Below, in pieces: positions 7,619 through 56,199 of a DNA stretch of 64,000 nt. The stretch is from Winogradskyella haliclonae (GTDB lineage: Bacteria > Bacteroidota > Bacteroidia > Flavobacteriales > Flavobacteriaceae). A model generated the notes under the pieces. That model was given only the letters and a program-made list of their open reading frames with translations. It did not search any database and had not been told where the DNA came from. Location of the stretch: NCBI RefSeq assembly GCF_014635865.1, contig NZ_BMDQ01000001.1, forward strand, positions 930,001 to 994,000, read 5' to 3'. Positions within the stretch are counted from its first letter, which is position 1, and the number at the start of each line of letters is the position of its first letter. Position numbers and translations under genes: made by a program.

Positions 7619-10567
7619 TTACTTCACTGATATCTCGTCTACAAAAATCCAGCTTTTCCCATTCATAGGATGTCCGATATGCCATTCAGGTAAATTCCCT
7701 AATTTTTTAGCGATGACTTTAACATATCTAGCATTTTTACCTTTTAATTCTAATGCTATAGTTTCAATAGCTATATTATAGTTTTTTTCAGTAGTGTTAA
7801 GTTTTGTTTTCCCAACTGATTGAAATGATATACCATCTTCACTTATCAAATATTCTACTTCTGATGGATGAAAGATCCAAGCACCTTGATCACGTAAAAA
7901 GTTAGTGGTTATAGACTGAATCCATTTTACTGAACCTAAATCAACTGTGGCCACTAAATCTTGATTATGATACCCTTGCCAACTACCTGTTCTGTAATTT
8001 TTGGTACTTCTTATACCATCAATTAAGGCGTCATTTCCACCTGCTGAATACTGATTGGCAAACTTAGAGTCTAATTTGATACTTAAATTTGGGTCAATTT
8101 TATAAAAAGGTGTTTCTAAAACAGGACTTTTTAAATCGCCTTTTTCAGAATACAATTTTACCTTAGTATCAGTTGTTAATTTGAATGGTGTCGAATAAAC
8201 TTGAAATGCTTCATCATCCAAAGCATAAAAGATTTTTGCGTCTTTTTCAGAAGTATTTAAAACCACTTCGGTTTTACCTCTAAAGGTAATGTCACCTTTT
8301 TCGATATATGGCGAAGGCAGAATAATATGGTCTTTAATTTCAGTTTTAGGTTCATTGCCTTCATCAGTTCCCCAAGTCGAAGGTTTATCTGTCATTGTAA
8401 ACTCTAGAGTCCCACCTTCAACAATATCCAAATGCTTAATGAAAGTTTCCTCTAGTGTTTTTCCATTTAACGTTACACTTTGAACATATATATTTTCGTT
8501 ACTGAGATTATTTGCAGCTATATTGAATTGTTTTCCATTTTCTAGATTAATAGTTGCTTTATCAAATAACGGTGTCCCAATGACATATTCATTACTTCCA
8601 GGAGTCACCGAATAAAAGCCCATAGAACTTAGCACATACCAAGCACTCATTTGGCCGCAGTCTTCATTACCAGAAACACCATCTGGGTCATTGTTGTAAA
8701 GCTCAGTTAAAATTTCATGCACACGCTCTTGAGTTTTATGAGGTTTATTTACAAAATTGTACAGATATGCCATGTGATGACTTGGCTCATTACCATGTGC
8801 ATATTGCCCAATTAGACCAGTAATATCAGATTGATTGCGTCCAGAGGTTTCAGTTTTTGCAGTGAATAATTCGTCCAGTTGATTTTCAAGTTTATCCTTT
8901 CCACCCAGTAGACTAATAAATCCAGAAACGTCATGTGGGACATAAAAACTGTATTGCCAAGAGTTGGCTTCGGTGTAGTTAAAATTGACTTCGTATGGAT
9001 CAAAAGGCGCAAACCATGTGTTTCTAAAACGCCCACGCATAAATTTGGATTCTGGGTCAAACACATTTTTATAATACTGTGCACGCTGAATGTAAGTTTT
9101 ATAATCTTCAGTCTTACCCATGTCTTTTGCCATTTGTGCAATGGTCCAATCATCATAAGCATACTCTAAGGTTTTAGAAACAGACTCACTTTCTTCATCT
9201 ACAGGAATGAATCCGTAGCTTTTGTAGGCTTCTAAACCAAATTTATCTCGAGTAGCTGAATGCTTCATAGCTGCAAAAGCTTTTTCAGTATCGTAACCAC
9301 GAATGCCTTTTAAATAAGCATCAGCAATAACTGGTACGGCATGATAACCAATCATACAATCGGTATAATTAGCAGCTAAATCCCACATAGGCATAATCCC
9401 ACCTTCGTCATATTTAGCCAAAAACGTATTGATAAAGTGGTTGGTTCGGTCTTGTTCTATAATTGTATAAAGTGGATGTGCTGCACGATAAGTATCCCAA
9501 AGTGAGAATACCGAATAATAATCGAAATCTGCCTCATGAATTTTTAAATCCATGCCACGGTAGCGTCCATCAATATCCTGATAGCGCTGTGGTGCAAGCA
9601 TAGTGTGGTATAAGGCCGAATAAAAGTTGGTTTTATTGTCTATATCATCGGTTTCGATAACAATTTTTTCAAGTTGAGACTCCCAATACTCTTGGCCTAT
9701 TTTTTTAACGGTTTCAAAATCTTTATCACCTATTTCTCCAATCATATTTTGTTTTGCACCTTTAATATCTACTGCGGAAATTCCAACTTTAATGTAAACA
9801 GTTTCGTTGTTTGGATTATTGAATTTAATGACAGCTTTTTGACTACTAAACTTGTAATTTTTGGTCATAGGATTGCCCTCGTTATCATCATAAACAATCC
9901 GTTCCATCGGATGCGAGAACGTCATATAATAAAAAAGGCGCTGGTCTTTTGCCCATGCTTCTGAGTGACGTAAACCCTGAATGGTTTTATCGTCGATTTT
10001 CTCAATTTTATAGTCTAACAATTTATCGCGATGTGCTAAATCTAAAACCATATATTGATTTTCTGCAGATGGAAACTGATATTTATGGATACCACTTCGG
10101 TTTGAGACTGTAAGTTCAACATCGATGTTTGTAGAGTCTAAATGCACTTTATAATATCCAGGTTCAGCAGCCTCATTGTCATGAGAGAAATGTGCGCGAT
10201 AACCTGCTTTTCCATCAGCACCATTATTAAACTGGATGGAATTAGTTGGTATTAAAAGGATATCACCATAATCACTAATTCCTGTGCCACTTAAATGTGT
10301 ATGTGAAAAGCCGTAGATGTACTCATCTGTGTAATGATAACCAGAGCAACCATCCCAGCCTTCTAGGCGAGTGTCAGGACTCAATTGCATCATGCCGTAA
10401 GGAAGCGTTGCACCAGGATAAGTATGGCCATGACCACCAGTGCCGATAAAAGTGTTTACGTAACTAATTAGAGCTTTGTCTTTTTTTGCTGGCGTATCTG
10501 AATTCTCGTTTTGGCATCCAAAAAGTAAAAGAACGCCAATGACAGCTGAAATAAATTTAGGATTCAT
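7619..10567 (-). CDS. GH92 alpha-mannosidase lipoprotein with C-terminal carbohydrate-binding-like module
   Basis: Calcium-dependent exo-alpha-mannosidase that trims the outer mannoses of N-glycans. It has 982 residues; a lipoprotein signal peptide ends in LLFGC (Cys18). The GH92 N-terminal domain begins VNTFIGTGGHGHTYPGATLP; further family blocks are GFSHTHLSGTG, MWDLAANYTDCMIGYHAV, GNEPSHHMAYLYN and SGNEDCGQMSAWY, the last two around the known Glu and Asp catalytic and calcium positions. From about residue 735 comes a chitobiase-C-like beta domain, then an F5/8 type C-like module starting near DGIRSTKNYRTG and ending FVDEISVK. It is the first gene of the leftward operon and is divergent from GH20 with only 38 bases between the two starts. 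Confidence 0.94.
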   Translation of the reverse strand: MNPKFISAVIGVLLLFGCQNENSDTPAKKDKALISYVNTFIGTGGHGHTYPGATLPYGMMQLSPDTRLEGWDGCSGYHYTDEYIYGFSHTHLSGTGISDYGDILLIPTNSIQFNNGADGKAGYRAHFSHDNEAAEPGYYKVHLDSTNIDVELTVSNRSGIHKYQFPSAENQYMVLDLAHRDKLLDYKIEKIDDKTIQGLRHSEAWAKDQRLFYYMTFSHPMERIVYDDNEGNPMTKNYKFSSQKAVIKFNNPNNETVYIKVGISAVDIKGAKQNMIGEIGDKDFETVKKIGQEYWESQLEKIVIETDDIDNKTNFYSALYHTMLAPQRYQDIDGRYRGMDLKIHEADFDYYSVFSLWDTYRAAHPLYTIIEQDRTNHFINTFLAKYDEGGIMPMWDLAANYTDCMIGYHAVPVIADAYLKGIRGYDTEKAFAAMKHSATRDKFGLEAYKSYGFIPVDEESESVSKTLEYAYDDWTIAQMAKDMGKTEDYKTYIQRAQYYKNVFDPESKFMRGRFRNTWFAPFDPYEVNFNYTEANSWQYSFYVPHDVSGFISLLGGKDKLENQLDELFTAKTETSGRNQSDITGLIGQYAHGNEPSHHMAYLYNFVNKPHKTQERVHEILTELYNNDPDGVSGNEDCGQMSAWYVLSSMGFYSVTPGSNEYVIGTPLFDKATINLENGKQFNIAANNLSNENIYVQSVTLNGKTLEETFIKHLDIVEGGTLEFTMTDKPSTWGTDEGNEPKTEIKDHIILPSPYIEKGDITFRGKTEVVLNTSEKDAKIFYALDDEAFQVYSTPFKLTTDTKVKLYSEKGDLKSPVLETPFYKIDPNLSIKLDSKFANQYSAGGNDALIDGIRSTKNYRTGSWQGYHNQDLVATVDLGSVKWIQSITTNFLRDQGAWIFHPSEVEYLISEDGISFQSVGKTKLNTTEKNYNIAIETIALELKGKNARYVKVIAKKLGNLPEWHIGHPMNGKSWIFVDEISVK

Positions 10568-10605
10568 TAAAAGATTACTAATTTTAAAGCACCTAAGATA
10601 CTAAA

Positions 10606-12936
10606 ATGCATTTCAAGAAAAACGCACTTATTTTATTTTTACTTTTTACTTTTTTTAATTGCAAAAAAGAGGATTTTCAAATTATAACTCCTCAAATTAT
10701 TCCGAAGCCCCAAAGTCAAGAGATTACACAAGGGAAATTCCTTTTAAGTTCAGACACACATCTTATTTTCGATACAGAGCTAAAACCTGCAATTAGGTAT
10801 TGGAAAAGTATTTCGGAATCAGTTTTTGGATTAAATACAGGAAAATCAAATACAATAAAGTTTGTCTTTGACGCTTCGATTTCAAATTCTGAAATGTATA
10901 AGTTAAAAATAACACCCCAAGAAGTTACTGTAAGAGCAAGCTCTGCAAAAGGAGCTTTTTACGCCATTCAAAGTATAATTCAGCTTTTGCCACCGGAATT
11001 TATTTCAAAAAACTTTAAGTCAGATGGATTATACATAAGAGCTCTTGAGATTACAGATCAACCTCAGTTCCCGTACCGTGGAATGCATCTCGATGTGTCA
11101 CGCCATATGTATTCAGTAGATTTTATAAAAAAGTATATTGATGCAATGGCAATGCTTAAAATGAATACGTTTCATTGGCACTTAACCGATGATCAGGGTT
11201 GGCGAGTTGAAATAGAAAAATATCCAAAGCTCAACGAAATAGCATCCTACAGAAACGAGACCCTGATAGGTCACTATAATGATCAACCACACCAATTTGA
11301 TGGGAAACGCTATGGAGGATTTTACACTAAAGCCCAGATAAAAGATATTGTGGCCTATGCTTCAGAGCGAATGATAACAGTAATTCCTGAGATTGAAATG
11401 CCTGGTCACTCTCAAGCTGTTATTGCAGCTTATCCTGAGCTTGGTTGTACTGGTGAAGAGGTTAGAGTTGCTACAAAATGGGGTGTTTTTGAACACATTT
11501 TTTGCCCAAAAGAAGAAACATTCAAGTTTTTGGAAGATGTATTGGATGAGGTTCTAGAATTATTTCCAAGTACGTACATCCATATTGGTGGTGATGAAGC
11601 TCCAAAAACACAATGGAAGTCATCTTCGTATTGTCAAGAGCTTATAAAAGCTGAAGGTTTGAAGGATGAGCACGAGCTTCAGAATTATTTTATTACTAGA
11701 ATGGAAAAATACCTCAATTCAAAAGGTCGGCAAATCATAGGATGGGACGAAATTTTAGAAGGTGGTTTAGCGCCAAATGCTACGGTAATGTCTTGGCGAG
11801 GTACAAATGGTGCAGTTGAGGCTGCAAAGTCAGGCCATAATGTGGTCATGACGCCAACATCACATTGTTATTTTGATTATTACCAATCCGATAATGAAGA
11901 TGAGCCAACGGCAATAGGCGGTTATTTACCTTTAGAAAAGGTGTATGGTTTTAATCCAATTCCTGAAGAATTAAATGCTAAAGAGTCAAAATATGTTATG
12001 GGAGCTCAAGGCAATGTTTGGACAGAATATATGCCCACAGAGGAACAAGTAGAATATATGGCTTTTCCAAGAATGCTGGCTATGAGTGAAGTCGTTTGGT
12101 CTACTTCAAAAAATAAAAACTATAAAGATTTTGTATCACGATTAGAAAATTTTCATAAGCGCTTAGAGGTTTTAGATATTAACTATGCAAATCATTTGTA
12201 TGAGATTCAAGGTGAAATGATTTCGGATAATGGAAACTCATTTTATAAACTTGAAACCTTAACCGATGGAAAAGACATACGCTATACTATTGATGGAAGT
12301 GAACCAAGATTAAACTCAGAAATTTATACATCTCAAATTTCAATTTCAGAAAGCTTAATTATTAAGGCTGCTGTATTTAATTCTGAAAAGCAATTGGGAA
12401 AAACCTTTACGCAAAACATCAATTATCATAAAGCTGTTGGTGCAAAAATCATAATAAATAAAGAACCACACAAAGCTTATTCTGGTAGTGGCGCAGAAGG
12501 TTTAATTAATGGTGTTAGCGGAAGTGACTCGCGTTATGGTGATAAAGAATGGTTGGGCTTTTGGGGCGAGGATATTGAGATTACTATTGATTTAGGTGAA
12601 GAGAAAGAAATAAATTCTATTGAAACACGCTTTTACAATGGTAATGGACAATGGATATATGCACCAGATATGATAAAGATTTCAACTGAAGAAGAACATG
12701 AAAAAGGGGAAATTGAATTTCAACCTTTAGAACCTGAAATAATTTTGCATACTTGGAGTAAAAATCCTTCAATAAAAATATTCAAGAAAGAATTCTTAGA
12801 TGAACAAAGAACTTATATAGATTTTAAAGTTAGATATATAAAAATTGGAGTCCCAAACTATGGTACAATTCCAGAAGGTAAACAAGGCTCTGGTAATAAA
12901 GCATGGACATTTATTGACGAAATTATAGTAAACTAA
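10606..12936 (+). CDS. GH20 beta-N-acetylhexosaminidase lipoprotein
   Basis: Removes terminal beta-linked GlcNAc (or GalNAc) by substrate-assisted catalysis. It has 776 residues; the signal peptide has a lipobox-like FFNC. A GH20b domain occupies about residues 30-145, followed by the TIM barrel with GMHLDVSRHMYS, WHLTDDQGWRVEI, the catalytic pair D330-E331 in HIGGDEAPKTQW, and WTEYMPTEEQVEYMAFPRM. After the barrel comes a chitobiase-C-like domain (around YTIDGSEPRLNSEIY) and an F5/8 type C-like module ending FIDEIIVN, the same order as in the divergent GH92 protein. CutC follows after 1 base and the GH2 beta-mannosidase overlaps CutC, so the three form one unit. Confidence 0.95.
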   Translation: MHFKKNALILFLLFTFFNCKKEDFQIITPQIIPKPQSQEITQGKFLLSSDTHLIFDTELKPAIRYWKSISESVFGLNTGKSNTIKFVFDASISNSEMYKLKITPQEVTVRASSAKGAFYAIQSIIQLLPPEFISKNFKSDGLYIRALEITDQPQFPYRGMHLDVSRHMYSVDFIKKYIDAMAMLKMNTFHWHLTDDQGWRVEIEKYPKLNEIASYRNETLIGHYNDQPHQFDGKRYGGFYTKAQIKDIVAYASERMITVIPEIEMPGHSQAVIAAYPELGCTGEEVRVATKWGVFEHIFCPKEETFKFLEDVLDEVLELFPSTYIHIGGDEAPKTQWKSSSYCQELIKAEGLKDEHELQNYFITRMEKYLNSKGRQIIGWDEILEGGLAPNATVMSWRGTNGAVEAAKSGHNVVMTPTSHCYFDYYQSDNEDEPTAIGGYLPLEKVYGFNPIPEELNAKESKYVMGAQGNVWTEYMPTEEQVEYMAFPRMLAMSEVVWSTSKNKNYKDFVSRLENFHKRLEVLDINYANHLYEIQGEMISDNGNSFYKLETLTDGKDIRYTIDGSEPRLNSEIYTSQISISESLIIKAAVFNSEKQLGKTFTQNINYHKAVGAKIIINKEPHKAYSGSGAEGLINGVSGSDSRYGDKEWLGFWGEDIEITIDLGEEKEINSIETRFYNGNGQWIYAPDMIKISTEEEHEKGEIEFQPLEPEIILHTWSKNPSIKIFKKEFLDEQRTYIDFKVRYIKIGVPNYGTIPEGKQGSGNKAWTFIDEIIVN

Positions 12937-44194: not shown

Positions 44195-47100
44195 TTGAAT
44201 ACAACCAATACTAATAATTCCTTCTTTTTAGTCAAATTAAAATGGTGCCTATCTATAATAGGCATATTGTGTTTTAGTACTGTTTTAGCTCAGACAACTC
44301 CAACAACTCAAGACTCAACTAAGACAACATTTGCATACGGAGATATTAAGTTACCTAAAGTAGGAAGTATACAAACATTATATACATACGACCCAATATT
44401 AGATAGATACATCTATAACGAAAAAATTGGAAAATTTAACATCAATTACCCATTAATTTTAACACCTGCGCAATTTCAAAAATTAGTGCAGAGAGAAAAG
44501 TTAAATGCCTATTATAAAGAAAAGATAGATGCAACCTCAGGACAGAAAGAAGGAACTGATGACGCTCAGAAAAACTTACTACCAGACTTTTATGTCAATT
44601 CAGATTTTTTCGAAAGTATTTTTGGAGGTAACACCATATCTGTAATACCTCAAGGTTCTGTTGATGTAGATTTAGGGATTTTATTCTCACAACAAGACAA
44701 CCCAACATTTACACCTCGTAATAGAAGTAATTTTACCTTTGATTTTGATCAACGTATTAGTATGAGTTTAACGGGTACTGTTGGTACACGTCTTCAAGTA
44801 AATGCTCAGTATGATACAGAACGTACATTTGATTTTCAGAATTTAGTCAAATTAGAATACACACCCACAGAAGATGATATCATCCAAAAAATTGAAATAG
44901 GTAATGTAAACATGCCGCTTAATAGCTCTTTAATTACTGGAGCGCAAAGTTTATTTGGTGTGAAAACACAATTACAATTTGGTAAGACAACTGTAACAGC
45001 TGTGTTCTCTGAACAACAATCAGAATCTCGTTCAGTAACATCTCAAGGTGGTGGTACGCTTGAAGAATTCGAATTTTTTGCTCGTGATTATGATGAAAAT
45101 CGTCACTTTTTCTTGGCGCAATATTTTGAGCAAGATTATGATAGGGCTATGAATACCTATCCGTACATTAATAATAATATACAGATTACAAGAATAGAGG
45201 TTTGGGTCACAAACAGAAATAATCAAACACAAAATGTGCGTAATGTCGTTGCGTTTCAGGATTTAGGAGAAGCAGAACGTATAGGTCTTGATGTAATACC
45301 TCCAGGTTTTGTGAATGTACCAACAACTAGTTTTCCAGATAATGGCAATAACGACTTTGACCCTACTAATATTGGTGGTCCAGGTTCTCAACTTAACGAT
45401 AATGTAAGAGATATTACTAATGTTCAAAGTGGTATAGGTGTACAAGTAAATGAAGGTTTTGACTATGGTATTTTAGAGAGCGCGCGTAAACTTAACCAAG
45501 GACAAGATTACACTTTAAATACTCAGTTAGGTTATATTTCACTAAATCAGAGATTATTAAATGATGAAGTCTTAGCAGTAGCTTTTCAGTATACAGTTGG
45601 AGGTCAAGTATTTCAAGTAGGAGAATTTGCTAATGATGGTGTAGATGCTACAGATGTTGCGGTTAATCCAGGCAATAATAACCAGATTGTAAACAATCAG
45701 AGTTTAGTGCTTAAAATGTTAAAGAGTGCTGTGACTGCTGTTGAAGAACCAATTTGGGACTTAATGATGAAAAACATCTATGACACTGGTGCTTTTCAAT
45801 TAACTCAAGAAGACTTTAGATTGAATATTTTTTATACCGAAGCATCGCCGTTAAATTATATCACTCCAGCTGAAGTTAATGGTGTTCAAGTGCCATTCCC
45901 ACAACTTTATGATAATAACACTTCTACAACTTCTGATGATACAGAGATTGAAGAGACACCGTTAATACGGTTATTTCATGTAGATCGCTTAAATTTTAAT
46001 AACGATCCGCAAGAAGGTGGTGACGGTTTCTTTGATTTTGTGCCTGGACAAACGGTGTTAGTTCAAAATGGTAAAATTATATTTACCAAAGTGCAACCTT
46101 TTGGTAATTACCTTTTTAATGTATTAGACGACCCATTAAATCCTGGAGATTATGATGATGACATATATCCAAATGCCAATCAAGAAAAATACGTCTACGA
46201 TTTACTATACAAAACTACTAAAACACAGGCTTTAGAAGAGTCCGAAAAGAACAAGTTTCAGATAAAAGGGCGTTTTAAAAGTAGCGGTAGTGGTGGGATA
46301 CCAATTCCGTTTAATGCAGCTAGAGGTTCTGTTAGGGTTACTGCTAATGGGCAATTATTAGTTGAAGGAGTAGATTATGTTGTAAACTATGCTGCAGGAC
46401 GTGTTGAGATTTTAGATGAAGCTTTAAAAGCATCAAATACACCAATAAATGTTGATGTTGAGAACAATGCACTTTTTGGTCAGCAAACAAGACGTTTTAC
46501 AGGTATTAATATCGAACATCAGTTTAATGAAAACTTTTTATTAGGAGCTACGCTTCTAAATTTAAATGAGCGTCCAATCACTCAGAAAGCTAATTTTGAT
46601 TCTGAGCCAATAAACAATACTATCTTTGGTGTTAATGGTAATTTCGCGACTGAGGTGCCTTTCTTTACTAGATTGGTAAATAAATTGCCTAATATAGATA
46701 CAGATGTCCCTTCTAATTTTTCTGTTAGAGGAGAATTTGCTTATCTCGCTCCTGGTGCACCTAAAGGAACAGATTTTGGAGGAGAAGCTACAGCGTATAT
46801 TGATGACTTCGAAGGGACGCAGGGTAATATAGATTTATTATCGCCTTTGTCTTGGACGCTATCTAGTAGACCTAGACAATTGGGAAGAATTTATGCCCAA
46901 GGTGGTGAGGATGACCCAGGCATACAAAATGGTTTTGACCGGGCCTTTTTAAATTGGTATACAATTGACCCAATATTTTATGGGCCTCAAAGACCAAGTG
47001 AAATTACAGATGATGATGTTTCCGATTTATACACAAGACGTGTGTTTATCAGAGAGATCTTTCCAGAAATTGATTTAGTACAAGGACAACTGGCTATTAT

Positions 47101-50100
47101 AAATACACTAGACTTAGCGTACTATCCAACAGAACGAGGCCCTTATAATTTTGACCCTTCAGCTGCTAATGGACAAGCATTAAACCCAAATGATAGTTGG
47201 GCAGGTATTACACGACAGATAACTTCTACCGACTTTGAGCAAGCTAATGTCGAATATATTGAGTTCTGGGTACAAGATCCATTTTTGGATAACCCAACAA
47301 ATCCTGGTGGTAAATTAACCATCAACCTTGGTAATATTTCTGAAGATGTTTTAAAAGATGGTAAAAAGCAATTCGAAAATGGCTTGCCAGAAGATGGAAA
47401 TATAGATTTTTTGCAAAATATTAACTTGCAAACACCTTATGCTGTGCCTCAAAATCAATCATTGATTTACACCTTTGGGACAACAGGGCAACAACGTATT
47501 AACCAAGATGTTGGTTACGATGGTTATGACGATATTGAAGAGCAAGATATTGTAGACTTCTTAGAGCAACAAACCGGATTATCTCTTGATTTTGGACCAG
47601 ATCCATCTCTAGATAACTACACTTACTTCTTAAATACAGATGGTGATATCTTTGAGCGTTATAGACAATACAATGGTTTTGAAGGTAATACGCCTGATAC
47701 GTTTTCACAGACTAATAGAGGAAATACAACACAGCCAGATGTTGAAGATGTCAACAGAGATAACACAATGAATACTATTGATAGTTATTTTGAATACGAG
47801 GTAGATATTACTCCTGCGACTCTAAATGCAAATAATCCTCAAATAAATGATATTAAAGTTGCACCAGTAACATTACCAAACGGAAATACTAGAGATGTTA
47901 CTTGGTATCAATTTAGAATGCCAATTTCTGAGCCTACCAGAGCCATAGGTGGCATTACAGATATTAGGTCTGTTCGTTTCGCACGTTTATACATGACTGA
48001 TTTTACCGAAAATACAGTGATGCGTTTTGCAACTCTAGACTTAGTGCGTAGTGATTGGAGACGATTTACTCAAGATTTAGATAATAATCCTAATAATAAT
48101 AGTGCCGATGCAGAATTTAATGTGGCTATTATTGGTATTCAAGAAAATGATGGAAACTATGTGATTCCGCCAGGTGTAAGACGTGAAGAGTTAAATAACA
48201 ACAATAATGTTATCCGACAAAATGAGCAATCTTTGGTTCTTGAAGCTTGTGATTTAGAGCTAAATGATTCAAGAGGTGTATTTAAAAACATCAGTTTAGA
48301 TATGCGTCAGTATAAAAAAATGAGAATGTTTTTGCATGCGCAATCTCAAGAAGCTCAGCCATTAGATGATGGAGAATTGGTGGCGTTTATAAGAATGGGT
48401 AATGATTTTACGGATAATTTTTATCAAGTCGAAATCCCATTAATTAATAGTGATTTAATACAAAGCGGAAGCACATCTTTAGAGCGTCGTATTTGGCCAG
48501 AAGATAATGAGATTAATATTCCTTTAGAGTTTTTACAAGAAATAAAATCTAGAGGGATTTCAAATCAAACTCTAGCCAATGAAGACCCAACATTTTATGA
48601 TGTTATTGATGGTGTTTTAGGTGAAAATCCAGTGCCAGAATTTCCGGGTACAGGTCTTGATGATGGTATTAAAAACCAACGTGTAGCTATAAAAGGAAAT
48701 CCAAATTTTGGTAACATCAGAGTGCTTATGGTAGGTTTGAAACATTCTGGTAAAAATAGAACGCCAGTTTGTGGAGAAGTTTGGTTTAATGAGTTAAGAA
48801 TGTCCGACCTAGAAAACGAAGGAGGTTGGGCAGCAGTAATGTCTATGGATACCAACTTTGCAGATTTTGCTAATATTAGTGCTTCAGGGCAACGAAGTAC
48901 AATTGGATTTGGAGGTTTAGAGCAAAATCCTAACGAGAGAAGTAGAGAAGATGTTATAGGTTATGATGTTGTAACTAATGTACAGTTGGGGCAGTTGTTA
49001 CCAAAAAAATGGGGAATTAATTTGCCTTTAAATTATTCTCAAGGTGAAGAATTAATTAGACCACAGTTTGATGCATTTTATAATGATTTAACTTTAGAAT
49101 CTCGTGTTAATGCTGCACAATCTGCTGAAGAAGCTCGACAAATAGAACGTCAATCAGAAAATTACACTAAGCGTACAAGTATAAATTTTATTGGTGTTAA
49201 AAAGCAAAGAACGACTGATAAGCCTCAACGATTCTATGATATAGAAAACTTTACGTTCAATTATTCTAACAACAAAGTTCAACACAGAGATTTTGAGATA
49301 GAGCAATCGCTTCAACAAAATATAAGAGCGGGAGTTAATTATGCATACAGTTTTCAGCCGAAGAAAATAGAGCCTTTCAAAAAGAATGATTCATTATTCA
49401 CAGGTAGGTATTGGAAAATTCTAAAAGATTTTAATGTTAACCTATTACCAACAAGCTTTTCGATTAATACAGATATCAATAGAGATTTTAATAGTCAGAA
49501 ATTTAGAGAAGTTGCACTTGTAGGTAATAATATAGGGATTGAAGAAGTCTTTAGACGCAATTATACTTTTGATATGCAATACGCAATCAATTATAACTTA
49601 ACAGATGCATTGAGCTTAAATTTCACAGCCAGTAATAATAATATTGTGCGTAACTATTTTATTGATAATCGTCTAAACGGACGTCAAGATCCTGAGTTAG
49701 ATGTTTGGGATGGCTTCTTTGATGTAGGTGACCCTAATATTCAAAATCAACAGCTTTTAGTGAATTATGAACTCCCTTTAAATAAGATACCTATTTTAAG
49801 TTTCTTACAATCTACCTATACATACAACAGTGATTTTAGATGGCAAAAAGGCTCAGATTTAAATCTTAATTTCGAGCAAACTGACGCTAATAATAATGTT
49901 ATAGGTACGTTTAATCTGGGTAATACTATTCAGAATAATAGTGCTCACACCTTAAATACAACACTTAATATGGAGTCGTTGTATAAAGAGTTAGGAATTA
50001 AAAAAGCGTCAAATTCTAGACGTAATACCTCAGGAAGAACCTCTGGAGGTAATAGAAATAATTCTACAAATAATGCACCAGCAAAAAAGAAAAGTGTAGG

Positions 50101-51475
50101 TAAACAAATAGGCAATACACTATTAGATATAGTCACTATGGTTAAGCGTGTTAATATTAACTATGTTGAGAATAGTGGAACATTTTTACCTGGATACTTA
50201 GATACGCCTGGGTTTATAGGGACATTACAACCTACTGTTGGTTTTACATTTGGTAGCCAAAGAGATATAAGAGAAACTGTTGCAAGAAATGGTTTGTTAA
50301 CCATCTTCCCAGAGTTTAATCAACAGTACACAGAAAATGTAGATAGACGTTTAGATTTCACGGCTAATTTAGAGCCAATGCGTGATTTAAAAATAGATTT
50401 GATCGGTAGTAGAAACTTTCAAGAAAACACAGCACAAAATTTTAGAGGTTTAGACAGTGATAATGATGGGTTTAGTGACGCTTATGAAGAATTAATAAAC
50501 AACTCTTTTGGTAACTTTAATATTTCGACATCTTTAATAGGTACAGCATTTTCTAAAAGTGATGAAAATGCTTCTGCTGCTTTCGATGATTTTAGAGCTA
50601 ATAGATTAATTATTGCAGATAGACTAGCTACTAATTTTTATGGTAATACAACATTTCCTAGGGATGCAGAAGGCTTTCCTGTAGGTTTTGGTAAAAACAA
50701 CCAAAAGGTATTATTGCCAGCATTCTTATCTGCGTATCATGGTTCTAATCCAAATAAAATAAGCTTAGGTGCGTTTAGAGATGTGCCTATTCCTAATTGG
50801 CAGCTTAAGTATACTGGATTAATGAAATTGCCTTGGTTTAGAAAAAACTTTAAACGTTTTTCTTTGCAACACGGATACCGTTCTACATATAGTATCAATC
50901 AATTTAGAACTAACCTAGATTTTGATCCATTAAATCCAACAGAATTAGATCAAGGAAACAATTTTAAAAACGAAACTCTATTTAGTAGTATTAATTTGGA
51001 AGAATCTTTTAGTCCATTAATACGTGTAGAAGCTACAATGAAAAACTCACTGCAGGTTACAGCAGAAGTTAGAACAAGTCGTTTATTATTATTGAGTTTT
51101 GACAACAACTTAATGACTGAAGAGCAAAGTAAAGAATATACATTAGGACTAGGTTACAGAATCAAAAATGTAAGGCTGTTTAAAAAATTAGGTGGCAATA
51201 GAGGCGGTAATGTTAATAGTGATCTTAATTTAACCTTAGATGCTAATGTCAGGGATAATCTTACAATAATTAGGTATCTAGATTTGGAAAATAATCAAAT
51301 TACTGCAGGGCAAACCATTTGGGGTATTAAGTTTAATGCACAATACGATTTAAACAGAAATCTTACAGGAATCTTTTTCTTTGATTACTCGTTCTCTGAT
51401 TTTGCAATTTCAACATCATTCCCACAAACCTCAATCAGGTCTGGATTTACGTTGCGATATAATTTCGGAAATTAA
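44195..51475 (+). CDS. sprA: Type 9 secretion system outer-membrane translocon SprA
   Basis: Giant outer-membrane beta-barrel that forms the protein-conducting channel of the type 9 secretion system; it also serves gliding motility by exporting adhesins. It has 2426 residues, matching known SprA/Sov proteins (about 2400-2500). A signal peptide lies at about residues 18-33 (CLSIIGILCFSTVLAQ). The chain is rich in Asn, Asp and aromatic residues, with alternating beta-strand patterns to the C-terminus. Family blocks include GEFAYLAPGAPKGTDFGGEA with YIDDFEGTQ, and VCGEVWFNELRMSDLENEGG. The start is a TTG at 44195 because no ATG occurs before the signal peptide. It is 5 bases behind ruvA. Confidence 0.95.
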   Translation: MNTTNTNNSFFLVKLKWCLSIIGILCFSTVLAQTTPTTQDSTKTTFAYGDIKLPKVGSIQTLYTYDPILDRYIYNEKIGKFNINYPLILTPAQFQKLVQREKLNAYYKEKIDATSGQKEGTDDAQKNLLPDFYVNSDFFESIFGGNTISVIPQGSVDVDLGILFSQQDNPTFTPRNRSNFTFDFDQRISMSLTGTVGTRLQVNAQYDTERTFDFQNLVKLEYTPTEDDIIQKIEIGNVNMPLNSSLITGAQSLFGVKTQLQFGKTTVTAVFSEQQSESRSVTSQGGGTLEEFEFFARDYDENRHFFLAQYFEQDYDRAMNTYPYINNNIQITRIEVWVTNRNNQTQNVRNVVAFQDLGEAERIGLDVIPPGFVNVPTTSFPDNGNNDFDPTNIGGPGSQLNDNVRDITNVQSGIGVQVNEGFDYGILESARKLNQGQDYTLNTQLGYISLNQRLLNDEVLAVAFQYTVGGQVFQVGEFANDGVDATDVAVNPGNNNQIVNNQSLVLKMLKSAVTAVEEPIWDLMMKNIYDTGAFQLTQEDFRLNIFYTEASPLNYITPAEVNGVQVPFPQLYDNNTSTTSDDTEIEETPLIRLFHVDRLNFNNDPQEGGDGFFDFVPGQTVLVQNGKIIFTKVQPFGNYLFNVLDDPLNPGDYDDDIYPNANQEKYVYDLLYKTTKTQALEESEKNKFQIKGRFKSSGSGGIPIPFNAARGSVRVTANGQLLVEGVDYVVNYAAGRVEILDEALKASNTPINVDVENNALFGQQTRRFTGINIEHQFNENFLLGATLLNLNERPITQKANFDSEPINNTIFGVNGNFATEVPFFTRLVNKLPNIDTDVPSNFSVRGEFAYLAPGAPKGTDFGGEATAYIDDFEGTQGNIDLLSPLSWTLSSRPRQLGRIYAQGGEDDPGIQNGFDRAFLNWYTIDPIFYGPQRPSEITDDDVSDLYTRRVFIREIFPEIDLVQGQLAIINTLDLAYYPTERGPYNFDPSAANGQALNPNDSWAGITRQITSTDFEQANVEYIEFWVQDPFLDNPTNPGGKLTINLGNISEDVLKDGKKQFENGLPEDGNIDFLQNINLQTPYAVPQNQSLIYTFGTTGQQRINQDVGYDGYDDIEEQDIVDFLEQQTGLSLDFGPDPSLDNYTYFLNTDGDIFERYRQYNGFEGNTPDTFSQTNRGNTTQPDVEDVNRDNTMNTIDSYFEYEVDITPATLNANNPQINDIKVAPVTLPNGNTRDVTWYQFRMPISEPTRAIGGITDIRSVRFARLYMTDFTENTVMRFATLDLVRSDWRRFTQDLDNNPNNNSADAEFNVAIIGIQENDGNYVIPPGVRREELNNNNNVIRQNEQSLVLEACDLELNDSRGVFKNISLDMRQYKKMRMFLHAQSQEAQPLDDGELVAFIRMGNDFTDNFYQVEIPLINSDLIQSGSTSLERRIWPEDNEINIPLEFLQEIKSRGISNQTLANEDPTFYDVIDGVLGENPVPEFPGTGLDDGIKNQRVAIKGNPNFGNIRVLMVGLKHSGKNRTPVCGEVWFNELRMSDLENEGGWAAVMSMDTNFADFANISASGQRSTIGFGGLEQNPNERSREDVIGYDVVTNVQLGQLLPKKWGINLPLNYSQGEELIRPQFDAFYNDLTLESRVNAAQSAEEARQIERQSENYTKRTSINFIGVKKQRTTDKPQRFYDIENFTFNYSNNKVQHRDFEIEQSLQQNIRAGVNYAYSFQPKKIEPFKKNDSLFTGRYWKILKDFNVNLLPTSFSINTDINRDFNSQKFREVALVGNNIGIEEVFRRNYTFDMQYAINYNLTDALSLNFTASNNNIVRNYFIDNRLNGRQDPELDVWDGFFDVGDPNIQNQQLLVNYELPLNKIPILSFLQSTYTYNSDFRWQKGSDLNLNFEQTDANNNVIGTFNLGNTIQNNSAHTLNTTLNMESLYKELGIKKASNSRRNTSGRTSGGNRNNSTNNAPAKKKSVGKQIGNTLLDIVTMVKRVNINYVENSGTFLPGYLDTPGFIGTLQPTVGFTFGSQRDIRETVARNGLLTIFPEFNQQYTENVDRRLDFTANLEPMRDLKIDLIGSRNFQENTAQNFRGLDSDNDGFSDAYEELINNSFGNFNISTSLIGTAFSKSDENASAAFDDFRANRLIIADRLATNFYGNTTFPRDAEGFPVGFGKNNQKVLLPAFLSAYHGSNPNKISLGAFRDVPIPNWQLKYTGLMKLPWFRKNFKRFSLQHGYRSTYSINQFRTNLDFDPLNPTELDQGNNFKNETLFSSINLEESFSPLIRVEATMKNSLQVTAEVRTSRLLLLSFDNNLMTEEQSKEYTLGLGYRIKNVRLFKKLGGNRGGNVNSDLNLTLDANVRDNLTIIRYLDLENNQITAGQTIWGIKFNAQYDLNRNLTGIFFFDYSFSDFAISTSFPQTSIRSGFTLRYNFGN

Positions 51476-51531: not shown

Positions 51532-51912
51532 ATGAATATTCCAGCGGATTTAAAATATACAAAAGACCACGAGTGGGTAAAGATAGAAGGTGATACAGCT
51601 ACAGTTGGTATTACAGATTTTGCTCAAGGAGAGTTAGGAGATATCGTTTATGTAGAGGTAGAAACTTTAGATGAAACCCTAGACATCGAAGAGGTTTTTG
51701 GAACAGTTGAAGCTGTTAAAACGGTCTCGGATTTATTTTTGCCTTTAAGTGGAGAAATTGTTGAATTTAACGAAACACTTGAAGATGAGCCGGAATTAGT
51801 AAATACCGATCCTTATGGTGCAGGTTGGATGATTAAGCTCAAATTTTCTGACGATAGTCAATTAGAAGGCTTAATGTCTGCTGATGATTACAAAGTGCTT
51901 ATTGGTGCTTAA
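51532..51912 (+). CDS. gcvH: Glycine cleavage system H protein
   Basis: Lipoyl carrier of the glycine cleavage system, 126 residues, the typical length. It begins [20 protein letters not shown]. The beta-barrel holds [18 protein letters not shown], and the lipoylated lysine is K63 in [14 protein letters not shown]. The C-terminal [15 protein letters not shown] is a family signature. It has its own promoter; the next gene starts before its stop codon, so the two are coupled. The other gcv genes (P, T) are not in this window. Confidence 0.96.
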
Positions 51913-52276
51913 AAACTCCAAATTCTACCTTGTACTTGCGGTAGTTTATACCCTTATTCTGTTGTATTTTACATTAGGGAATCCTAATGAAGTTTTACCA
52001 GAAACCAGCATAAAATTTCAAGATAAAATCTTTCACTTTATTGCTTATGTTATTTTAGCAATACTTTGGGGCTTGTATTCTTTTACAGGTGATAACAAAA
52101 AAGGATTACGAATTAGTTTTATAGCGACATTAATTTTTGGAGTAGTCTTAGAACTAGTGCAAGAAGTTGTTAATCCACTTCGTAATTACGATAATCTAGA
52201 CCTATTAGCCAATTGTGTTGGAGTGGTAGTTGGTACGATTGTTGTGCTTTATTATAAAAATCTTAAGTTAAAATAG
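51884..52276 (+). CDS. VanZ-like small membrane protein
   Basis: Membrane protein of up to 130 residues with four hydrophobic segments. VanZ-like features are the motif [17 protein letters not shown] and the [20 protein letters not shown] segment before the last helix ([14 protein letters not shown]). The founding VanZ lowers teicoplanin susceptibility, but most family members have no known role. The start is uncertain: ATG 51884 overlaps gcvH by 29 bases, while a TTG at 51902 or GTG at 51905 would begin right at [10 protein letters not shown] with less overlap. Linkage to gcvH appears to be by position only. Confidence 0.8.
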
Positions 52277-52337: not shown

Positions 52338-53063
52338 ATGGAACCTAAAAAGAATCCAAAATCAGACGTAAGTCGTAACAGCTCACTTTTCTTTGCTGTT
52401 GGTTTAGTATTAATGTTGCTTGTAACTAATCTAGCGATTAATTATAAGACATACGACAAGAGTGATATTGCACTAGATGGTTTAAATCTAGATGACGAAT
52501 TAGAAGAAGAAGTGCCAATCACAGAACAGATTGTTACGCCACCACCACCACCACCACCGCCACCTGTTGCACCGGTAGAGATTGAGGTAGTGGAAGATGA
52601 GGAAGAAGTTGAGGAAACTGTAATTGAATCTACTGAGACTGAGCAAGATGCTGAGATTGTAGAGGTAGAAGAAGTAGAAGTAGAAGAAGTAGAAGAAGAC
52701 ATAGAAGTGCCATTTGCGGTAATTGAAAATGTGCCAATTTTCCCAGGTTGCGAGAGGAAAAAAGGAAATGCAGCTAAGAAAAAATGTATGTCAGAAAAAG
52801 TAGCAAAGTTTGTAAATAAGAAATTTAATACTGACTTAGCTGGAGATTTAGGATTATCAGGAAGGCAGCGTATTAGTGTGTTCTTTAAAATTGACAAGAC
52901 TGGACGAATTGTAAATGTAGGTGCAAGAGCACCACATCCAGGATTAGAAAAAGAAGCTAAACGTGTTATCGGTTTATTACCAAAAATGCAGCCAGGTAAG
53001 CAAAGAGGTAAAGCTGTAACAGTGCCTTACTCATTACCGATACTTTTCCAAGTTCAGGACTAA
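52338..53063 (+). CDS. TonB-family energy transducer (acidic linker)
   Basis: Inner-membrane-anchored protein of 241 residues that would pass proton-motive force from ExbBD to outer-membrane receptors. One transmembrane helix (SLFFAVGLVLMLLVTNLAI) is followed by nine prolines (residues 68-76). Next comes a linker of almost only Glu, Val and Asp (about 80-124), coded by near-repeats of GTAGAAGAA. The C-terminal TonB domain runs from about residue 130 to the end, with NVPIFPGCE (135-139), a second Cys at 150, VFFKIDKTGRIVNVGARAPHP and KMQPGKQRGKAVTVPYSLPI. The 53180 gene shares this domain. A terminator follows, so it is its own unit. Confidence 0.9.
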   Translation: MEPKKNPKSDVSRNSSLFFAVGLVLMLLVTNLAINYKTYDKSDIALDGLNLDDELEEEVPITEQIVTPPPPPPPPPVAPVEIEVVEDEEEVEETVIESTETEQDAEIVEVEEVEVEEVEEDIEVPFAVIENVPIFPGCERKKGNAAKKKCMSEKVAKFVNKKFNTDLAGDLGLSGRQRISVFFKIDKTGRIVNVGARAPHPGLEKEAKRVIGLLPKMQPGKQRGKAVTVPYSLPILFQVQD

Positions 53064-53086
53064 GCAAAACAATATTCCATATATTA

Positions 53087-53121
53087 AAAATCCCGTTCAA
53101 AATTAATTGGACGGGATTTTT
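53087..53121 (+). terminator. Terminator after the first TonB gene
   Basis: AAAATCCCGTTCAA (53087-53100) pairs with TTGGACGGGATTTT (53107-53120), one G-T wobble, then a T-run. Confidence 0.88.
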
Positions 53122-53179
53122 GTTTTGGTATGCTTATTGTGACTTTGACATAATATTAACATTTTAATAATCATATATT

Positions 53180-53968
53180 ATGAAAAAACAAAGTCAAAAC
53201 AACAATAACGCTGGTCAGAGCGGTATTGAAGTGAGAAAATCTCAAAAGCACGAGGTTAATTTACAAAAAAACTCCACACTGTATTTTCAAATAGGGTTAA
53301 TCCTATGCTTATTAGGTACATTTGCCCTTTTTGAAATGGAGTTTGAGAGTAAGGCTTACAAGCCTGTAGTAGCAGATGTTGGACCTAAAGAAATTGATTA
53401 CGCTATAGACAAATTTAAAGTCTATGAGCCTAAAGCTAAGCCAGAACCTAAAAAAAAGCTGCCAAGTAAAAAAATTATCGATGAAATAAAGGTGGTTGAT
53501 AATACTATTAAAACAATTGAGACAAAGTTGTTTACACCCGAGGATAAACCAACAACTGATAAGCCATTTAATCCTGATAAATACACTCCAGTTGAAGTTC
53601 CTGAAGACGATTTTAATATTAAAACGGTAGAGTTTGTTCCAATTTTTCCAGGATGTGAAAAGTATGATTTAAACTCTGAACGTGAAAAGTGTTTAAATCA
53701 AAAAATGAATAAATTGGTTCAGAGAAAATTTAATACTGATATCGCAGAAGAATACGGGCTCTCTGGAACACAAAGAATTTATGTAAACTTTAAAGTAGAT
53801 AAAACAGGAAATATTACAGAGATTCAAACTAGAGCGCCTCACCCAAAGCTAGAGAAAGAAGCTTTAAGAATAGCGAATAAGATTCCTAAAATGACCCCCG
53901 GTAAAATGGGAGTTACTCCGGTGAATGTAATGTATAGCTTACCAATAAAATTCACAGTAGAAAATTAA
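53180..53968 (+). CDS. TonB-family energy transducer (basic linker)
   Basis: Second TonB-like protein, 262 residues. The N-terminal cytoplasmic tail is Asn/Gln-rich, then one transmembrane helix (STLYFQIGLILCLLGTFALF). The linker is rich in Lys and Pro (KAKPEPKKKLPSKK) without the proline run of the upstream gene. The C-terminal TonB domain has FVPIFPGCE (156-160), a second Cys at 171, the shared NTDIAEEYGLSGTQRIYVNF, VDKTGNITEIQTRAPHP and KMTPGKMGVTPVNVMYSLPI. It is clearly a paralogue of the preceding gene in that domain, while the linkers differ in charge. It is flanked by terminators on both sides, so it is transcribed alone. Confidence 0.9.
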   Translation: MKKQSQNNNNAGQSGIEVRKSQKHEVNLQKNSTLYFQIGLILCLLGTFALFEMEFESKAYKPVVADVGPKEIDYAIDKFKVYEPKAKPEPKKKLPSKKIIDEIKVVDNTIKTIETKLFTPEDKPTTDKPFNPDKYTPVEVPEDDFNIKTVEFVPIFPGCEKYDLNSEREKCLNQKMNKLVQRKFNTDIAEEYGLSGTQRIYVNFKVDKTGNITEIQTRAPHPKLEKEALRIANKIPKMTPGKMGVTPVNVMYSLPIKFTVEN

Positions 53969-53993
53969 TTTCATCCATCATAAATCGAGCAGT

Positions 53994-54021
53994 AAACCGT
54001 TATTGAAAAATAGCGGTTTTT
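53994..54021 (+). terminator. Terminator after the second TonB gene
   Basis: AAACCGTTATT (53994-54004) pairs with AATAGCGGTTT (54009-54019), one wobble, followed by T residues. Confidence 0.8.
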
Positions 54022-54048
54022 GTTTTTTATAGCCCATCAAAAAAATAG

Positions 54049-54056
54049 TATCTTTC
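54049..54056 (+). promoter_or_regulatory. Possible -7 box of the RemB-like gene
   Basis: TATCTTTC differs from TAnnTTTG only in the last base and lies 25 bases before the chosen start at 54082. Its overlap with the region of the earlier ATG at 54058 favours the later start. Confidence 0.4.
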
Positions 54057-54081
54057 GATGGTTAATTATGGTCATACATCT

Positions 54082-56199
54082 ATGAAACATATCTTTTCCT
54101 TAATCTTTCTTCTATTAAGTTTTATTGGTTTTTCTCAAACCGAAATTAATTATCAAAAGCCTCCAGTTTTTAAAGAATGTGCTGACCGACCTTTTGATGG
54201 TTTAAAAGAATGCTTTAGATATCAATTGCACAGCTTTATTTTTGAGAATTTCAAAATTCCGGATAATGTAACAAGTGAAAATTATAAAGGAGAGGTTAAA
54301 CTGCTTTTTGAAGTAGACAAAGACGGAGAATTTAAAATCATATTTGTTGATGCTGCTTATGAGGAATTAAAGTCTGAAACCCAACGTGTATTTGATGCAT
54401 TGCCAAAAATTACACCGGCTATGTATGACGGTAAACCAACTTATGTTCAGTATTCTACAAAGATTAATGTTCCGCTGTTAAGTCCTAAAGAGATGGACTT
54501 AAAAGATAAAGAATCAGAAAAGAGAACAAAAGCCAAGGATGAAGATTTAAATGCTGTAGTTTCTAATGAGATTGACAGCATTAATAACTCATTAAAGCCT
54601 TATGATAAGTTAGAATATAGTAGCCAATTAAACATCCCTTTTACACATACATACTATGCACGTTTTGATGCCAATATGAATGCTATAGGAACCAATGCGC
54701 ATACAGCCGCAAAGCCATTTCTATACAATGATGTCGCGCCATATTATGACTTCAAAGCCGAAAAAGAAGGTTTAGCTAAAAATGCAGAAACTTGGATTGG
54801 ACGTAAGCTTTGGGATGAGCATTTGGTACAAGTACAAAGCAAAAATTATTGGTTTACTATAGATCCTATTTTGGACTTGCAAGTCGGTAAAGATTCGGAA
54901 GCAGAGTTTAGTTCTACATTTAATAATACTCGAGGTGTTTTTATCCAAGCTGGAATTGGCAAGAAATTCAATTTTACAACGTCTTTTTATGAAAGTCAAG
55001 GGCGTTTTGCACAATATTTTAATGCGTACGCAGAAAGCTTAAAAGCCTTTGGCCCAGATCCAGCAATAATTCCAGGTAGAGGTATTGGAAAACGCTTTAA
55101 AGATGATGCATACGACTATCCAGTTGCAGAAGCGTATTTGTCCTATACACCAGCTGAGTTTTTAAATGTACAGTTTGGACATGGTAAAAATTTTATTGGA
55201 GACGGTTATCGTTCCTTGTTTCAAAGTGATGTGGCAAGTCCGTCAACATTTTTAAAGACAAATCTAAAATTTTGGAAAATAAAATATACGAGTACTTGGA
55301 TGTGGAACAAAGATGTACGTGACCAAGTCGTGCTTCCAGATGGGTCTTTTTTAACGAAATATGTTGCTAATCACTATTTGAGTTGGAATGTCTCTAAGCG
55401 ATTAAATTTGGGCTTTTTTGAATCTGTAGTTTGGTCTAATCAAAACGACCGTGGCTTTGATGCCAGTTATCTCAATCCAATTATTTTCTTAAGAGCTGCA
55501 GAGTTTAATTCGGGTCAGGATGCAGGTAATGCTATTTTAGGCTTGTCTGCAAAATACAAATGGAATAATAAGGTGAATATTTATGGTCAATTTTTGATAG
55601 ATGAATTTTCAATTTCTGATGTTACTGGAGGTGATAAAAGCTGGAAAAATAAGTTTGGCTTTCAATTAGGTGTTAAATATTTTAATGCTTTCGGGGTTGA
55701 TGGTTTGTTGCTTCAGGCAGAATATAACCAAGTGCGTCCATATACCTATTCGCACAATACCGTAGTTTTAAATTATGCACATAATAATCAGCCACTTGCC
55801 CATTTATGGGGTGCAAACTTTAGAGAATTAGTATTGATTGGGCGCTATAATTACAAACGATGGTTTGCCGATGCTAAGCTTATTTTTGGAGAGCGAGGTT
55901 TTGATTTTAGAGACGGAACGGATAATTTCTACTATGGCGGTTCAATATTCGGTGATGAAAATGACAGACCTTCTGATACAGGTATAGAAATTGGCCAAGG
56001 GAATAATACCTCAGTCTTTCATGGCGAACTCATGGCGGGTTATGTGATTAATCCGGTAAGTAACCTAAAAGTATTTGCCAATATCAACTACCGAAATTTT
56101 GACCCAACAGTTGAAACTACTATTACCAACCGCACCAATACCACCTGGATAAGTTTTGGCGTCCGTACCGATTTATTCAATTGGTATAATGATTTTTAA
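54082..56199 (+). CDS. remB: RemB-like gliding motility outer-membrane protein with N-terminal TonB-C-like domain
   Basis: Outer-membrane protein of 705 residues when started at ATG 54082, which opens the signal peptide MKHIFSLIFLLLSFIGFSQ. Residues about 22-135 resemble the TonB C-terminal domain of the two upstream genes: KPPVFKECADRPFDGLKEC (Cys33, Cys44), LLFEVDKDGEFKIIFV, LPKITPAMYDGKPTYVQYS. From about residue 180 comes a beta-barrel with FGHGKNFIGDGYRSLF, similar to Wzi/RemB-type barrels, ending in aromatic residues (WISFGVRTDLFNWYNDF). RemB was described in Flavobacterium johnsoniae as a gliding protein; I assign it from overall layout, and a capsule-assembly (Wzi) protein is the alternative. 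Confidence 0.6.
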   Translation: MKHIFSLIFLLLSFIGFSQTEINYQKPPVFKECADRPFDGLKECFRYQLHSFIFENFKIPDNVTSENYKGEVKLLFEVDKDGEFKIIFVDAAYEELKSETQRVFDALPKITPAMYDGKPTYVQYSTKINVPLLSPKEMDLKDKESEKRTKAKDEDLNAVVSNEIDSINNSLKPYDKLEYSSQLNIPFTHTYYARFDANMNAIGTNAHTAAKPFLYNDVAPYYDFKAEKEGLAKNAETWIGRKLWDEHLVQVQSKNYWFTIDPILDLQVGKDSEAEFSSTFNNTRGVFIQAGIGKKFNFTTSFYESQGRFAQYFNAYAESLKAFGPDPAIIPGRGIGKRFKDDAYDYPVAEAYLSYTPAEFLNVQFGHGKNFIGDGYRSLFQSDVASPSTFLKTNLKFWKIKYTSTWMWNKDVRDQVVLPDGSFLTKYVANHYLSWNVSKRLNLGFFESVVWSNQNDRGFDASYLNPIIFLRAAEFNSGQDAGNAILGLSAKYKWNNKVNIYGQFLIDEFSISDVTGGDKSWKNKFGFQLGVKYFNAFGVDGLLLQAEYNQVRPYTYSHNTVVLNYAHNNQPLAHLWGANFRELVLIGRYNYKRWFADAKLIFGERGFDFRDGTDNFYYGGSIFGDENDRPSDTGIEIGQGNNTSVFHGELMAGYVINPVSNLKVFANINYRNFDPTVETTITNRTNTTWISFGVRTDLFNWYNDF

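Follow-up and report, generated by a model that had tools for sequence, protein, structure and literature searches.

RemB of Winogradskyella haliclonae: a predicted Wzi-like barrel with a TonB-type periplasmic domain in the sprA gene cluster

We analyzed a 64,000-nucleotide stretch of the Winogradskyella haliclonae genome (NCBI RefSeq assembly GCF_014635865.1, contig NZ_BMDQ01000001.1, positions 930,001 to 994,000; hereafter the window), in which two tonB genes (tonB1 and tonB2) and a remB-type gene follow sprA, the gene for the outer-membrane translocon of the type IX secretion system (T9SS). RemB is probably a polysaccharide barrel of the Wzi kind equipped with a docking domain of TonB type, and its layout is a new domain architecture made from known parts. 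The computed basis of this reading comprises the homology and fold of the domain, the resemblance of the modeled barrel to Wzi, the conservation of the cysteines, a probable single origin of the fusion, a gene neighborhood kept in relatives, and the polysaccharide context of relatives that lack the domain; from these we infer polysaccharide binding, docking, a partner, and any role in gliding. RemB would be a Wzi-type outer-membrane barrel that handles or binds surface polysaccharide. In an ancestor of at least most remB-bearing Flavobacteriaceae, it would have acquired a domain of the TonB C-terminal type, placed behind the signal peptide and ahead of the helical region. This domain would hang in the periplasm and most likely serve as a docking module: like TonB C-terminal domains, it would probably use beta-strand addition to hold on to a partner in the periplasm or inner membrane. 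Such docking could anchor the polysaccharide barrel, or set its timing, with respect to the sprA/TonB machinery.

The prediction makes RemB testable and links slime, T9SS, and periplasm in one gene cluster. Because the modeled barrel resembles a capsule-sugar-binding protein, the fusion suggests a way of tying surface slime to the periplasm, and it also suggests that TonB-type domains act as periplasmic modules beyond TonB in flavobacteria. RemB is named in lists of gliding genes (a table in PMC4891872; PMC5714932); in the openly licensed PMC literature that we consulted, no mechanism is given for RemB, and no TonB_C domain is described for RemB or for any Wzi-like barrel.

A TonB-type domain shared by TonB1, TonB2, and RemB

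A preliminary description of the window had proposed that TonB1, TonB2, and RemB share one periplasmic domain with a cysteine pair, and profile-profile alignment, which it named as a check, bears this out. All three proteins exceed the curated cutoff of the Pfam family TonB_C (PF03544; 24.6 bits), with 30.2 bits for TonB1, 35.6 for TonB2, and 26.0 for RemB, and BLASTP of each TonB against RemB, with single sequences, yields an E value of 4e-7 over about 105 residues. When 65 RemB domains are compared as a profile with those of 29 TonB1 and 29 TonB2 domains, the match has a probability of 98.9 (E value, 1.1e-17) for TonB1 and of 98.7 (E value, 3e-16) for TonB2, both cysteines being aligned in each case. 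Taken together, these scores place the likeness far beyond chance, and we regard the three domains as homologous on sequence grounds.

The fold agrees with the sequence. The RemB domain modeled alone reaches a predicted local distance difference test score (pLDDT) of 94.1, and its top match among solved structures is the TonB C-terminal domain of Pseudomonas aeruginosa (6I97_D; Foldseek E value, 2.4e-4; Z score, 8.9; root mean square deviation [rmsd], 2.2; 87 residues). This is the only Foldseek row with an E value below 0.001, and rows 1 to 17 are all TonB, TolA, or the TonB-like proteins FusB and HasB. As modeled, RemB residues 20 to 134 fold like a TonB C-terminal domain, so that the different fold to which the preliminary description would have yielded did not appear. 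The C-terminal strand of the RemB domain (QYS..I.IPL) is conserved, and we take it to correspond to the edge that binds the TonB box. Searches of Protein Data Bank (PDB) sequences with RemB and with domain profiles gave nothing useful, the weak profile matches looking like chance, and a plasmid search gave no match.

The layouts of the proteins differ. TonB1 and TonB2 have an anchor, a linker (both by eye), and a C-terminal TonB_C domain and are, by this layout, TonB energy-transfer proteins. RemB instead carries the domain at the N terminus, after a signal peptide (by eye), with about 570 residues following it, and has a barrel in place of an inner-membrane anchor and linker. Its open reading frame (ORF) was listed from position 54058, but the start at ATG 54082 is likelier, since a typical signal peptide (by eye) results, and the residue numbers of the preliminary description fit this start as well.

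Counted from that ATG, the RemB cysteines are C33 and C44, and those of the TonBs are C138/C150 (TonB1) and C159/C171 (TonB2, which also has C43), as previously given. Both RemB cysteines are invariant in 65 of 65 domains from the window and the named loci (one further row of 66, L150, a frame without a start, is left out), and both are present in all 16 rows of a more divergent set that includes the window. A pattern search of 120 RemB frames found the pair at a spacing of 11 in 117 and of 9 in 1; the other two are the truncated L150 and L139, which has the pair by eye. The pair was also found in 122 of 130 TonB1-type and 91 of 96 TonB2-type frames, nearly always at a spacing of 10 to 12. As each domain has its own pair 11 to 12 residues apart, an internal disulfide would be a likelier role than a cross-link between proteins.

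The RemB cysteine pair is likewise present in TonBs from the Flavobacteriaceae and from other families of the class, alongside a GG type that lacks it, which rules the pair out as the mark of a recent copy from the neighboring tonB. The position of the RemB domains in a domain tree (118 columns, with many open forks and some long branches), apart from TonB1 and TonB2, speaks against such a mark as well.

A Wzi-like barrel

The whole-protein model of RemB places helices before a barrel of 18 to 19 long strands (residues 256 to 705). When structures were aligned in a second look, Wzi (2YNK) ranked first (Z score, 20.8; rmsd, 3.5; 364 residues; 13% identity; RemB residues 181 to 698), followed by a row with a Z score of 16.9. 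Wzi, the lectin of Escherichia coli group 1 capsules (Pfam PF14052), is described in PMC3791409 as an 18-stranded barrel in which a helical bundle forms the closure; it binds capsule polymer and is said there to lack the TonB recognition signal. The modeled RemB shares the trait of an 18-stranded barrel with an N-terminal helical plug and differs from Wzi in its extra periplasmic TonB-type domain and in failing the Pfam model. This likeness, which the preliminary description had missed, is new here: the RemB barrel appears Wzi-like rather than a TonB-dependent receptor, and RemB may work like Wzi.

Among 30 members of the barrel alignment, 4 match Pfam Wzi at E values up to 1 (best, 4.9e-9); one of these four, from locus L199, scores 18.6 bits against a cutoff of 30.1. 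No NCBIfam family matches RemB, and 30 barrels give weak, scattered matches there. PF14052 has no match in the W. haliclonae genome, but as it had none in the control genomes either, this negative carries no weight.

Two other identities for RemB were rejected. At E values up to 1, it matches neither the Pfam plug nor the TonB-dependent receptor families, which rules out a TonB-dependent receptor, and it matches no T9SS C-terminal sorting domain of NCBIfam or Pfam, which rules out T9SS cargo. The RemB protein of Flavobacterium johnsoniae (Fjoh_1657) is tabulated as adhesin-like and secreted by the T9SS (PMC4891872), whereas for RemB of the window we predict an integral barrel, with no match to such a sorting domain.

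Distribution and origin of the fusion

The RemB profile matches at least 351 of 395 genomes of a class-wide sample at an E value of 1e-15 or better. Outside the Flavobacteriaceae (58 genomes, one per family except for nine of family f6), the barrel is present in 57 of 58 genomes; among the matches listed, none of the barrel covers the TonB-type part (profile positions 22 to 131), and the labeled barrel frames are 501 to 595 amino acids (aa) long (that of L201 being displaced by an opposite-strand frame). Within the Flavobacteriaceae, 96 of 149 genomes have RemB, 95 with the domain and 1 (G128) without it, as read by hand, some matches being split by contig ends. In the domain tree, limited as it is by its length and branching, a single branch (support, 99/94) separates 22 RemB domains from the other sequences, and they are not nested in TonB1 or TonB2, which fits one fusion event; the domain probably joined the barrel once, in the Flavobacteriaceae. 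The G128 genome also has no tonB after sprA-gcvH-vanZ within the stretch fetched (L224, on contig C12; L248).

RemB was rejected as a core part of the T9SS or the gliding motor. Of the 149 family genomes, 53 lack it, yet gldM persists in 52 of these 53 and gldB in 48 (gldM is present in 145 of 149 overall), and remB is for this reason better regarded as accessory.

Conservation of the gene neighborhood

In 40 of 40 family loci, chosen for full-length RemB, sprA, gcvH, and vanZ lie upstream of remB on the same strand, with at least one tonB between them and remB in 39. Among the named loci (the best 80 of at least 583 and, hence, close relatives, the closest being an uncultured Winogradskyella with 96% identical RemB), a tonB is upstream of remB in 79 of 80 and sprA in 72 of 80. 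Seven of the eight without sprA have under 1.8 kb of upstream sequence, and the eighth is L113. The order sprA-gcvH-vanZ-tonB-remB is, then, kept in nearly all sampled remB loci of the Flavobacteriaceae, and the loss of neighborhood that would have spoken against the preliminary description was not seen. In L113 (positions 7894-12627), gcvH, vanZ, tonB1, tonB2, and remB are together, with other genes on the opposite strand where sprA would be. In L050 (genome G127), RemB retains the TonB-type domain and there is no tonB in the sprA cluster.

RemB of F. johnsoniae, like that of the window, lies shortly downstream of sprA, four locus tags after it (Fjoh_1653 and Fjoh_1657; PMC4891872), and the orthology of the two proteins is assigned by gene position and family. 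Other genes stand between tonB and remB in deeper loci. In six of these, a gene resembling hexapeptide sugar acetyltransferases is next to remB (by eye); the proteins from four such loci were scanned, lie just upstream of remB, and have NeuD/PglB/VioB as their best NCBIfam match, below the cutoff. A deoC-type gene is near remB in several deeper loci (one scanned, above the cutoff). The hexapeptide protein may be WbpD-like. In Porphyromonas gingivalis, the sugar to which T9SS cargo is anchored requires WbpD (PMC7468200).

Polysaccharide and T9SS genes around domain-less relatives

Some domain-less relatives of RemB lie near polysaccharide genes, a further likeness to Wzi. We fetched 20 such loci and scanned chosen neighbors in six, along with two frames of L199. 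A neighbor of polysaccharide type (sugar transferase, glycosyltransferase, polysaccharide deacetylase, or an O-antigen-ligase-like protein below the cutoff) is present in five of the six, the sixth being L205, for which one neighbor was scanned. In 12 of the 56 outside-family genomes that have both genes, the barrel gene follows sprA on the same strand at a distance of no more than 20 kb; these 12 represent six families, with 7 from the oversampled family f6. Eight of the 12 have two barrels around a WecA-like gene by eye (three WecA-like proteins were scanned and fall below the cutoff), and in L214, Gmd (above the cutoff) and Fcl (498.4 bits; cutoff, 500) are beside the barrels and the WecA-like gene. 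L207 has the order sprA-gcvH-vanZ, two other genes, and then porP-gldK-gldL-gldM-gldN-wcaJ-barrel-barrel, a compact T9SS and polysaccharide cluster. As domain-less barrels adjoin sprA or gldKLMN in some lineages, the tie of the barrel to T9SS loci in those lineages seems older than the fusion. In Flavobacterium gliding work, rem genes are reportedly found together with polysaccharide genes.

Weighing the alternatives

Several results weigh against a Wzi-like barrel tied to T9SS loci. The link to Wzi depends on a model of middling confidence (mean pLDDT, 72.5) and on distant relatives: neither RemB of the window nor its barrel alone matches Pfam Wzi, which places the protein outside the family as Pfam models it, the barrel profile has no match among PDB sequences, and in the Foldseek ranking by itself the whole model has the alginate exporter AlgE at the top and Wzi in ninth place, with many porins close behind. 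No polysaccharide gene was seen beside remB among the ORFs listed for 48 to 62 kb of the window. In 44 of the 56 outside-family genomes, the barrel is outside the sprA neighborhood as defined (some may be cut by contig ends); gldM is within 5 kb of the barrel in only two of nine genomes tested (G195 and G161), and the gldKLMN genes beside the barrel of G195 (the L207 cluster) are one of two gldM places in that genome. G128, moreover, is a member of the Flavobacteriaceae whose barrel lacks the domain.

The preliminary description had further suggested that the TonBs and RemB pair to move energy, which our results do not support. Such pairing, by which TonB1 or TonB2 would hold RemB through the like domains and pass proton-motive energy to the barrel as a reversed-polarity Ton system without a TonB-dependent receptor, seems unlikely. 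The domains are alike, TonB C-terminal domains dimerise in vitro, and tonB and remB adjoin in most loci, even in L113, where sprA is elsewhere; moreover, two or more tonB frames are present in 32 of 40 loci with remB (one, L040, having tonB2 in two pieces) versus 5 of 15 genomes without it (P = 0.003, ignoring kinship). This second tonB and the L113 cluster are weak leads in favor of the earlier proposal. Against them, mirror-tree comparisons (computed over 79 loci in which every gene is single-copy, and conditioned on SprA distances) gave no specific link between the RemB domain and TonB1 (r = 0.126; P = 0.077) or TonB2 (r = 0.101; P = 0.103), next to values of 0.077 (P = 0.147) for the RemB barrel and of 0.056 (P = 0.172) and -0.111 (P = 0.94) for the controls VanZ and GcvH. 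The RemB barrel does correlate with TonB2 (r = 0.252; P = 0.009), but this signal is not specific, because VanZ correlates with both (r = 0.188, P = 0.01 for the barrel; r = 0.402, P = 0.001 for TonB2). Of the 53 remB-less genomes, 15, all at least 99% complete, were examined, and 14 retain tonB-type frames (238 to 303 aa, matching only the TonB-type part) after sprA-gcvH-vanZ; conversely, L050 keeps the RemB domain without a tonB in the cluster. Terminator-like hairpins fill both gaps between tonB1, tonB2, and remB, so that the three genes may form separate transcripts, although the number of such sites in the region (2, versus a mean of 2.7 in shuffled sequences) is not above chance. A broader form, in which the gripping domain couples a polysaccharide lectin barrel to TonB1, TonB2, or some other partner powered by protons, and the inner membrane would thereby drive or gate slime handling together with gliding or T9SS surface assembly, no TonB-dependent receptor being involved, we hold to be slightly less likely again.

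The domain might instead be a passive foot without any protein partner, one that binds peptidoglycan or just closes or stabilizes the barrel. Peptidoglycan binding has been reported for TonB C-terminal domains, and the use of such cysteine-pair domains on anchor-less or lipoprotein-like proteins of this genome shows the module outside TonB; the conserved C-terminal strand, described above as the edge for the TonB box, argues the other way, and we consider a passive role improbable. The kept fold and strand edge would also suit a strand acceptor for peptides that resemble TonB boxes and belong to other proteins of the outer membrane or periplasm. RemB would then cluster with transporters or with parts of the T9SS and not with TonB itself, a proposal that strikes us as similarly improbable. 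We retain the reading of RemB as a polysaccharide barrel with a docking domain.

Features of the cluster and other TonB_C-type domains in the genome

The features of the cluster are given in Table 1.

Table 1. Genes, domains, and hairpins from sprA to remB in the window
Feature	Position	Strand	Basis
sprA, T9SS outer-membrane translocon, 2426 aa as listed	44195..51475	+	TIGR04189, 2693.1 bits
gcvH (name by eye)	51532..51912	+	ORF; order kept in relatives
VanZ-like membrane protein	51884..52276	+	NF037970, 30.2 bits (cutoff, 20)
tonB1, 241 aa; inner-membrane anchor and proline-rich linker by eye	52338..53063	+	TonB_C, 30.2 bits
TonB1 C-terminal domain with C138 and C150	52722..53057	+	TonB2-domain profile, E value 6.9e-50 within own genome
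Terminator-like hairpin with T run, tonB1/tonB2 gap	53085..53122	+	16 pairs
tonB2, 262 aa; inner-membrane anchor by eye	53180..53968	+	TonB_C, 35.6 bits
TonB2 C-terminal domain with C159 and C171	53627..53965	+	TonB2-domain profile, E value 3.9e-50
Terminator-like hairpin with T run, tonB2/remB gap	53994..54019	+	11 pairs
remB-type gene, 705 aa; signal peptide by eye	54082..56199	+	ORF; TonB_C, 26.0 bits; sprA-remB positions match Gramella/F. johnsoniae table (PMC4891872)
RemB periplasmic domain, like TonB C-terminal domain, residues 20-134, with C33 and C44	54139..54483	+	Model, pLDDT 94.1; P. aeruginosa TonB, Z score 8.9
RemB linker and helical region, residues 135-255	54484..54846	+	Model; Wzi alignment range begins inside, at residue 181
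RemB predicted Wzi-like barrel, residues 256-705, 18-19 long strands	54847..56196	+	Whole-protein model; Wzi 2YNK, Z score 20.8

Though the sharing of the domain holds, it is not special to the three neighboring genes: a search of the genome with the TonB2-domain profile finds eight such domains, all with the cysteine pair by eye. Besides TonB1, TonB2, and RemB, they belong to an M56/BlaR1-type protein, a TonB-type protein of 354 aa with a long linker, and three others of 218, 157, and 292 aa, which show, by eye, either a signal peptide or a lipobox and in which we saw no inner-membrane anchor; Pfam TonB_C detects only the 292-aa member of these three. The M56/BlaR1-type protein, like RemB, carries TonB_C outside a TonB protein but has Peptidase_M56 and no barrel. 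With RemB, the M56/BlaR1-type protein, and the anchor-less carriers, the TonB_C-type module is used several times outside TonB proteins here.

The 157- and 292-aa proteins are exported-looking and encoded by two neighboring genes (contig C1, 1078165-1079336; L229 and L232) between thyA-like and folA-like genes (by eye); the larger seems to hold a second, degenerate copy of the domain. The lipoprotein-like 218-aa protein (contig C3, 101519-101842; L231), whose domain has no Pfam match, has F-N-N-K after its second cysteine, like several RemB domains.

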